Positions 33,934-41,027 of a stretch of DNA of 41,771 bases are shown here, piece after piece. The notes under the pieces are model-generated. The model saw only the letters and a program-made list of their open reading frames with translations, was not told where the DNA came from and did not search any database. Source of the stretch: Candidatus Parcubacteria bacterium (GTDB lineage: Bacteria > Patescibacteriota > Minisyncoccia > Phycocordibacterales > Phycocordibacteraceae); NCBI GenBank assembly GCA_021731495.1, contig JAKFXG010000007.1:1-41771 (forward strand), given 5' to 3'. How positions within the stretch are numbered: position 1 is the stretch's first letter; every line of letters starts with the position of its first letter. Position numbers and translations under genes: made by a program.

Positions 33934-34140
33934 ATGGCATACCAAGCTGAACGCGAAGAGATCGAGATCAAGAAGTTTATCGACTATAAGGATGTAGCGT
34001 ACCTCAAACTGTTCACAAACCCCCACGCAAAGATGCTTTCCAAGAAGCGCACCGGCATTCCCTCGGGCAAGCAGCGCGATGTTGTGGAAGCTATTAAACG
34101 CGCCCGCTTTATGGCATTACTTCCCTACGTTGCCGCATAA
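33934..34140 (+). CDS. rpsR: 30S ribosomal protein S18
   Basis: A 68-residue S18. The conserved core is FIDYKDVAYLKLFTN, ISPHAK-like NPHAKMLSKKRTGIPSGKQRDV and the terminal KRARFMALLPYV. It ends the rpsF-ssb-rpsR cluster. Many bacteria have rplI (L9) directly downstream, but here there is only the inverted-repeat element and the convergent efp gene, so L9 is absent from this locus. Confidence 0.96.
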   Translation: MAYQAEREEIEIKKFIDYKDVAYLKLFTNPHAKMLSKKRTGIPSGKQRDVVEAIKRARFMALLPYVAA

Positions 34141-34155
34141 AGGGAAGCCCTAATC

Positions 34156-34300
34156 GCAAAATGATACTAGTGTGAAAGCGAAAACCACCCCAGCGGGTGG
34201 TTTTCTAAGCTTCAGCATCCGTTTTTGGCATTGCCTTCGGCAAAGAATGCCAAAAGCCGGCACGGATACCTACGCTACTTTCACACTAGTATCATTTTGC
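34156..34300. repeat. 145-bp element with 23-bp perfect terminal inverted repeats
   Basis: Positions 34156-34178 and 34278-34300 are exact reverse complements. Between them are two internal hairpins: one with AAACCACC/GGGTGGTTT followed by a T-run (plus-strand terminator), and one nested structure at about 34215-34268 with ATCCGT/ACGGAT outside, GGCATT/AATGCC inside and a TTCG-containing tip. It lies exactly between the convergent rpsR and efp genes. It could be a bidirectional terminator, a MITE-like repeat, or both. No clear target-site duplication is visible. Confidence 0.85.
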
Positions 34301-34304
34301 TTAC

Positions 34305-34880
34305 CTATGATTTCGTGACGCGCTCAGTGTATTCGCCCGAGTCAGTATTGATACGGATGATGTCGCCTGTATTGATAAACAAGGGAACATTGACCTTTGC
34401 GCCGGTGACAAGCTCAACAAGCTTCGTGCCTCCCGAGACCGTATTGCCTTTTACTGCGGGAGGAGCGTCCTTCACTGCGAGCTCTACTTTTACCGGTATC
34501 TTGATCGTCATCGGTCTCTCTTCGTAGGTGAGCACTTCAACGGATGCGTTTGGACTAAGCCACTGTACCTTGTTGTGTACCGAATCTTCCGGAAATGAAA
34601 AGCGATTCTTCGGGTTACCTTCTTCGGCGAACCAACTTTCTCCTCGATTGGTGTAGAGGTACTGTGCCTGTATTTTCCCGGTATCGGCCTCGGTGACGGT
34701 TTCATTTTGGTGAAAGGAGATCTCAACGACCTTTCCGCCAACGAGCTGGCGCAATTTGGTCTGGTTTACAGGCTTACGCATCTGCATACGGAAAATATGC
34801 GATGAAAGAACCTCATACGGCTCGTTATTGTAATTAATGATGGTCTTGGGGAGGATTTCGTTATACGACAGTACGGCCAT
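34305..34880 (-). CDS. efp: translation elongation factor P, with non-standard tip loop
   Basis: A 191-residue EF-P with three beta-barrel domains; it relieves ribosome stalling at polyproline. The N-terminal LSYNEILPKTIINYNNEPYEVL, LRQLVGGKVVE and the late VPLFINTGDIIRINTDSGEYTERV are all diagnostic. The usual tip loop KPGKGQA, bearing the lysine or arginine modified in most bacteria, is replaced here by RMQMRKP, so the standard modified position aligns with Met. It is transcribed convergently with rpsR. TATAAC lies about 30 nt upstream of the start on its strand. Confidence 0.93.
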   Translation of the reverse strand: MAVLSYNEILPKTIINYNNEPYEVLSSHIFRMQMRKPVNQTKLRQLVGGKVVEISFHQNETVTEADTGKIQAQYLYTNRGESWFAEEGNPKNRFSFPEDSVHNKVQWLSPNASVEVLTYEERPMTIKIPVKVELAVKDAPPAVKGNTVSGGTKLVELVTGAKVNVPLFINTGDIIRINTDSGEYTERVTKS

Positions 34881-40922: not shown

Positions 40923-41027
40923 GTCCAGCCCCAGTTTCGTAACGGGATTCCATTTTTTTGTTGGGACATACGAAACAAAACGATAGAAATCAGTCGTGGC
41001 GATTGCGTTACGAAACTGGGGCTGGAC
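40923..41027. repeat. 105-bp element with 21-bp perfect terminal inverted repeats
   Basis: Positions 40923-40943 and 41007-41027 are exact reverse complements (22 bp counting G40944 with C41006). The 62-nt interior is T- and A-rich. It could be a terminator, a miniature inverted-repeat element, or a regulator of the following gene. Confidence 0.8.

Follow-up and report, generated by a model that had tools for sequence, protein, structure and literature searches.

A three-way junction recurring behind housekeeping genes of Patescibacteria, a putative 3′-end element

The spacer between rpsR and efp in the window (the whole stretch of DNA analyzed here, 41,771 nt of a Candidatus Parcubacteria genome) contains a conserved three-way junction, which occurs in several copies per genome and is placed about 11 nt past the stop codons of co-oriented housekeeping genes. 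Its pairing is preserved by hundreds of matching base changes, and it is thus a functional structure, the role of which is putative. With a probability of roughly 0.55, the window element belongs to a family of structured elements that mark transcript 3′ ends in Patescibacteria, most likely as a 3′-end element in which termination is coupled to an RNA fold that is protein-bound or protective. The family appears to be previously undescribed; a search of the open-licence literature found no earlier account of it. The 666-kb genome assembly comprises 30 contigs, and most of its nearest named relatives carry the label Candidatus Kaiserbacteria (Parcubacteria). The analysis drew on searches together with about 350 kb of sequence stretches.

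The two genes that flank the element are convergent, as the first-pass annotation had reported: rpsR (ribosomal protein bS18; 33934–34140, + strand) was recognized by similarity to its orthologues and by the order rpsF-ssb-rpsR, and efp (elongation factor P) occupies 34305–34880 on the − strand. The neighborhood, read by eye, comprises tatD, rpsF, ssb, rpsR, efp, a sigma factor, and recA. The element had been said to fit exactly between its neighbors; it does lie inside the gap, but a margin of 15 nt separates it from the rpsR stop and one of 4 nt from the efp stop. Its inverted arms (34156–34178 and 34278–34300; GCAAAATGATACTAGTGTGAAAG and CTTTCACACTAGTATCATTTTGC) are 23 bp long, 100% complementary, and separated by 99 nt, which confirms the perfect terminal repeats first described, and the two hairpins claimed inside them both exist. 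Within the window there are three perfect inverted repeats of at least 22 nt, and the rpsR/efp element is one of the two with a long loop. The whole spacer (34141–34304) folds with an energy of −78.7 kcal/mol (z −9.5) on the + strand and −91.7 kcal/mol (z −11.5) on the − strand, values that none of 200 shuffles matched on either strand.

The fold common to the aligned copies consists of an outer stem (P1), a hairpin (P2), and a long hairpin (P3/P4), and spans about 120–170 nt across the family. The 5′ arm of P1 (34156–34178, + strand, 23 nt, the perfect complement of 34278–34300) varies among copies; P1 can have any sequence and may comprise as many as about 30 perfect pairs. P2 (34180–34205, + strand; GAAAACCACCCCAGCGGGTGGTTTTC inside the window arms) is a terminator-like hairpin, GAAAACCACC-CCAGC-GGGTGGTTTTC, with a family-conserved loop that reads CCAGCG. 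The junction TAAGCTTCA (34206–34214, + strand; nn-GCUCC- in the family, alignment A6) leads from P2 to P3/P4 (34215–34267, + strand), in which P3 is (GC)ATCCG/CGGAT and P4 is TTTTTGGCATTGCC..GGCAAAGAATGCCAAAA. P3 is preceded by a short GC stem that bears an internal loop rich in pyrimidines (UGC-UCC/UCC-GCA), and it is parted from P4 by a 7-nt bulge on the 3′ side (34256–34262, + strand), which is ACCAUGC or near to it in most families and GCCGGCA in the window. A further junction, ACCTACGCTA (34268–34277, + strand; AGCUCCGCAA in the family), precedes the 3′ arm of P1 (34278–34300, + strand), the end of which, TTTTGC(TTA), corresponds to the right-flank motif of the family. This motif, YYGCT, stands right of P1 in 45 of 70 copies (7 expected; TTGCT in the window), and GCTC/YTCG stands left of P1 in 43 of 70 (12 expected).

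The search for further copies in the genome, recommended by the first-pass annotation, had a divided outcome. By BLAST the window element matches only itself, but this single-copy result is misleading, since covariance models find four copies: the window copy on contig C5 (98 bits), C25:3088–3239, C3:39926–40065, and C9:14997–15136. The copy on C3 lies 3′ of a ribonucleotide reductase gene (L285), which has an in-frame stop (..KIDY*KLYAYER..) 27 codons before its end, either an assembly error or real. Beyond this genome, sequence matches covering part of the element occur at the rpsR locus of G079, where part of P3/P4 has been lost, and at another locus, 3′ of ftsZ, in G093; the core of the latter agrees with the window at 83% over 79 nt and keeps P2 and the layout of the second hairpin, but its outer stem differs. 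Three copies in G272, which belongs to another family, were recovered by a pattern search, and a search seeded from them gave many more, with G272, G232, G333, G171, and other genomes having multiple copies. An exact-pattern search with the P2 loop recovers only a small part of the family. Model R1 yielded strong Kaiserbacteria copies behind ftsZ, rpoC, rpsA, and ychF and also upstream of pth, and with model R2 the element was found in at least 53 of the order's 397 genomes (E ≤ 1e-6); this is a minimum, as scoring was limited to seven candidates per genome. Models trained without them score many further families at 60–118 bits. Finally, model R3 detected the element in eight genomes outside the order; two of these belong to its class and six to other parts of the phylum, and a secA-like gene and an aldolase gene are among the genes followed by a copy. 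Downstream of ftsZ in G106 and G018 (L294 and L297) there are shorter elements, in which a long outer stem is combined with a common loop segment, CTCGCGCCGTCGCGCTCCG; they have no R3 match at E ≤ 1e-5 and may be a sister subclass.

The pairing of the element was evaluated on two alignments. With 36 copies (A5), 91.7% of the cells are paired and two-sided changes occur in 46 of 48 pairs; with 57 copies (A6), the values are 92.3% and 54 of 54. The covariation score of the 57 copies is 0.773, against 0.181 after shuffling and 0.09–0.16 with the partner slid, and the P1 arms pair at about 90% with their own partner and about 50% when swapped between copies. Covariance models were used to fit both alignments, which therefore lean toward structure; the slid and swapped-arm controls are far below the observed values, and thus the signal is not created by the fitting alone. 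Pairing kept by matching base changes means that the element is neither a chance hairpin nor an ordinary mobile repeat. It also supports the structured RNA or terminator suggested at first, the fold being kept by compensatory changes in relatives and the branch P2 being terminator-like. Such changes had been named, for a single-copy structure, as the sign of an RNA or terminator rather than a mobile element; they were found, though the element is not single-copy. The ratio of G-U to A-C is 34/33 in P1, 2/6 in P2, and 2/2 in P4, and simple hairpins of the genus behave alike (2 G-U, 3 A-C), so this wobble test does not separate RNA from DNA; P3 has an excess of G-U (25 versus 8 A-C).

The position of the copies relative to genes is equally regular. 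A co-oriented open reading frame stops within 60 nt upstream in 59 of 75 copies, at a median distance of 11 nt and mostly 8–13 nt, compared with 25 of 75 in a mirror test and 19% at random sites. The upstream genes, the names of which were assigned by eye from the sequence rather than by profile search, are mostly housekeeping genes: rpsR, rpsJ, rpsG, rplE, rplT, rpmB, ftsZ, rpoC, gyrB, secY, smc, hisS, argS, eno, groEL, rpoD, ftsW/rodA, and nrd. The site 3′ of rpsR is occupied in G000 (the genome of the window), G079, G333, and G046, which represent three families; the ftsZ site is occupied in two families and the nrd site in three genomes. As exceptions, some copies precede pth or lie in reverse orientation behind dnaB. 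The bidirectional terminator between convergent genes that was first envisaged is too narrow a description, because the majority of copies occur outside convergent gene pairs.

A function at transcript 3′ ends could be exerted in several steps. During transcription of the upstream gene, P2 and its U-rich 3′ side may cause pausing or termination, and any read-through RNA would then fold into the full junction. The loop CCAGCG, the bulge ACCAUGC, and the internal-loop motifs would be presented to a binding factor or would shield the mRNA 3′ end, and the long P1 might block 3′-to-5′ exonucleases. At rpsR/efp, the element would take the place of the simple two-way terminator hairpin of the relatives and serve both converging genes. 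The sequence-specific cores may spread or convert within genomes, P1 needing only to pair. Several points count against such a 3′-end mark. If P2 ended all transcripts, P3, P4, and P1′ would be absent from the RNA; six copies have no U-rich P2, and a simple terminator scan does not flag P2; and the copies upstream of pth or behind dnaB depart from the usual placement. In addition, P1, P2, and P4 lack an enrichment in G-U, which might be expected if the structure acted at the DNA level or on either strand, although simple hairpins of the genus share this trait.

A broader proposal, put forward tentatively and at less than even odds, is that of a 3′-UTR RNA class extending over the Patescibacteria, in which a common protein or factor reads one junction behind many essential genes, while the cores are copied between loci and the outer stem need only pair. 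If correct, this class would represent a shared signal for 3′-end control or processing. To our knowledge, RNA regulation has hardly been characterized in Patescibacteria, and a multicopy structure just behind ftsZ, rpoC, ribosomal-protein, secY, gyrB, groEL, and sigma-factor genes suggests a shared 3′-end system that acts on the core genes of these reduced genomes. The element family provides a specific model open to testing in any carrier that is in culture, together with a covariance model for annotation, and it may combine mobility with a function as RNA.

This last aspect recalls the MITE-like repeat of the first-pass annotation, an idea that is mostly not borne out. Copies do exist elsewhere in the genome, and the cores in family f79 have moved or been homogenized: the cores within a genome are near-identical (99–100% among three copies in G232, 94–97% in G272) at different loci, although their P1 arms differ, and copies that different genomes carry at one and the same gene are less alike, which indicates spreading or homogenization by conversion. 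A rival explanation is that the element is a non-autonomous mobile DNA (MITE- or REP-like) that enters beside stop codons or into terminator loops, with the folded strand as the substrate of recombination. This explanation is unlikely, although it agrees with the number of copies per genome, with their patchy presence at orthologous sites, with the conserved flank motifs just outside P1, and with the lack of wobble preference in P1, P2, and P4. Other features oppose it. The arms are copy-specific, so that there are no common terminal repeats; the window copy is flanked by the different sequences AATC and TTAC, with no target-site duplication; and a search of the relatives at rpsR/efp and ftsZ for a clean empty site in which the arms are joined yielded none, as unrelated hairpins occupy these places. 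The duplications and empty sites that a mobile element was expected to leave thus failed to appear. Furthermore, the orientation is biased, the spacing to stop codons is fixed, and the same site is retained across families. The ftsZ copies of Kaiserbacteria diverge gradually (71–78% for three of them) with compensatory changes, and three core patterns had no match in 2.9 million viral contigs. REP/BIME and MITE repeats are likewise dispersed, palindromic, intergenic, and present in several copies per genome, but the element differs from them by its covarying arms, which share no terminal sequences, and by its oriented placement at a fixed distance from the upstream stop.

Less probable still is that the element amounts to no more than an elaborate bidirectional intrinsic terminator serving rpsR and efp, with the remaining fold incidental. 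The rpsR-efp spacers in most of the genus lack the element and hold simple long, near-perfect hairpins of the A-tract/GC/T-tract type with unrelated sequences; P2, directly 3′ of rpsR and 40 nt past its stop, is a GC-rich hairpin of this kind with near symmetry between the strands, and in a few relatives (L014 and L057) a structured loop is likewise enclosed by long arms. BLAST and these spacers gave the first impression of an ordinary bidirectional terminator, which was overturned by the matches in G079 and G093. The idea suggested by G079, that the right half is a 72-nt insertion into a simple terminator, was rejected because full copies turned up elsewhere, and G079 has instead lost part of P3/P4. 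The conserved core further weakens the terminator-only explanation: P3/P4, the junction, and the unpaired motifs show a conservation that far exceeds what a terminator requires, and they recur at dozens of non-convergent loci. The 3′ side of P2 is U-rich (at least 5 U in 8) in 51 of 57 copies, leaving six without this feature; in the window only TTTTCT follows P2, partly within the stem, and a simple terminator scan does not flag it. Thus, the element resembles intrinsic terminators, including bidirectional ones, in lying 3′ of a stop codon, in the A-tract/GC/U-tract-like hairpin P2, and in replacing such a hairpin of the relatives at rpsR/efp, but it is one conserved family where terminators are unrelated hairpins, and it adds the conserved three-way junction, loops and a bulge of specific sequence, and an outer stem that can reach about 30 bp and is not followed by a U-tract. 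In two rpsR-efp spacers (L035 and L059), a common repeat, CACGGATA..GCTCGC..TGTTTTGCGTGCTCGCAAAACATGCCTCCGGCCGAT, stands beside the simple terminator.

A DNA-level binding site, as a cruciform or single-stranded hairpin serving, for example, chromosome organization or the arrest of replication/transcription conflicts at gene ends, is very improbable: the nearly pure Watson-Crick pairing, the long and perfect P1, and the about equal folding of both strands would fit it, but the orientation mostly tracks the upstream gene, P3 tolerates G-U, and the simple hairpin terminators of the genus share the lack of G-U.

Among known classes, an integron attC site was discarded, as the outer stem is the variable part and the genes are single-locus housekeeping genes, with no conserved outer core or cassette array; so was a retron ncRNA (msr-msd), with no reverse transcriptase seen by eye among the window neighbors and mostly housekeeping genes elsewhere. 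TIGR arrays of Parcubacteria are tandem 8–12-nt repeats adjoining Tas genes (PMC12045711); they are RNA-bearing loci with stem-loops in the same phylum, but their layout differs from that of the element, which is solitary and gene-terminal. The candidate structured RNAs obtained by comparative genomics (PMC2864571, PMC6429828) are similar in their covariation, conserved unpaired motifs, and consistent gene context; the element differs in that each genome may have many copies, located 3′ of housekeeping genes that are unrelated to one another, and in the lack of an Rfam match: at permissive thresholds, the window copy and seven f79 copies gave only chance matches in Rfam 15, none above the gathering threshold.

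Other repeats were encountered along with the element. A separate MITE-like family with the ends CCCCGTTAGAAAT (variants CCCCGTGAGATA) forms an insertion of about 85 nt in L306 (G002, 3′ of ftsZ), for which L315 (G008) offers the empty site GAGCTATATG^CACGACC, and it has copies in the genome of the window at L153:14984–15102, L157:175–293, L151:775–874, and L156:3151–3245. A second long-armed inverted repeat of the window (40923–41027; 22-bp perfect arms, GTCCAGCCCCAGTTTCGTAACG, around a 61-nt loop) is perhaps a relative of the CCCGTTA family. A 23-bp perfect palindrome, GATTGCCGAACGTGCGGGCGTGT, lies at 231–277 of the window within an open reading frame predicted by crude calling, and two long palindromes of the same genome (L151:18979–19020 and L155:8406–8443) have TATCCACAACTTGT in common and perhaps constitute another repeat family.
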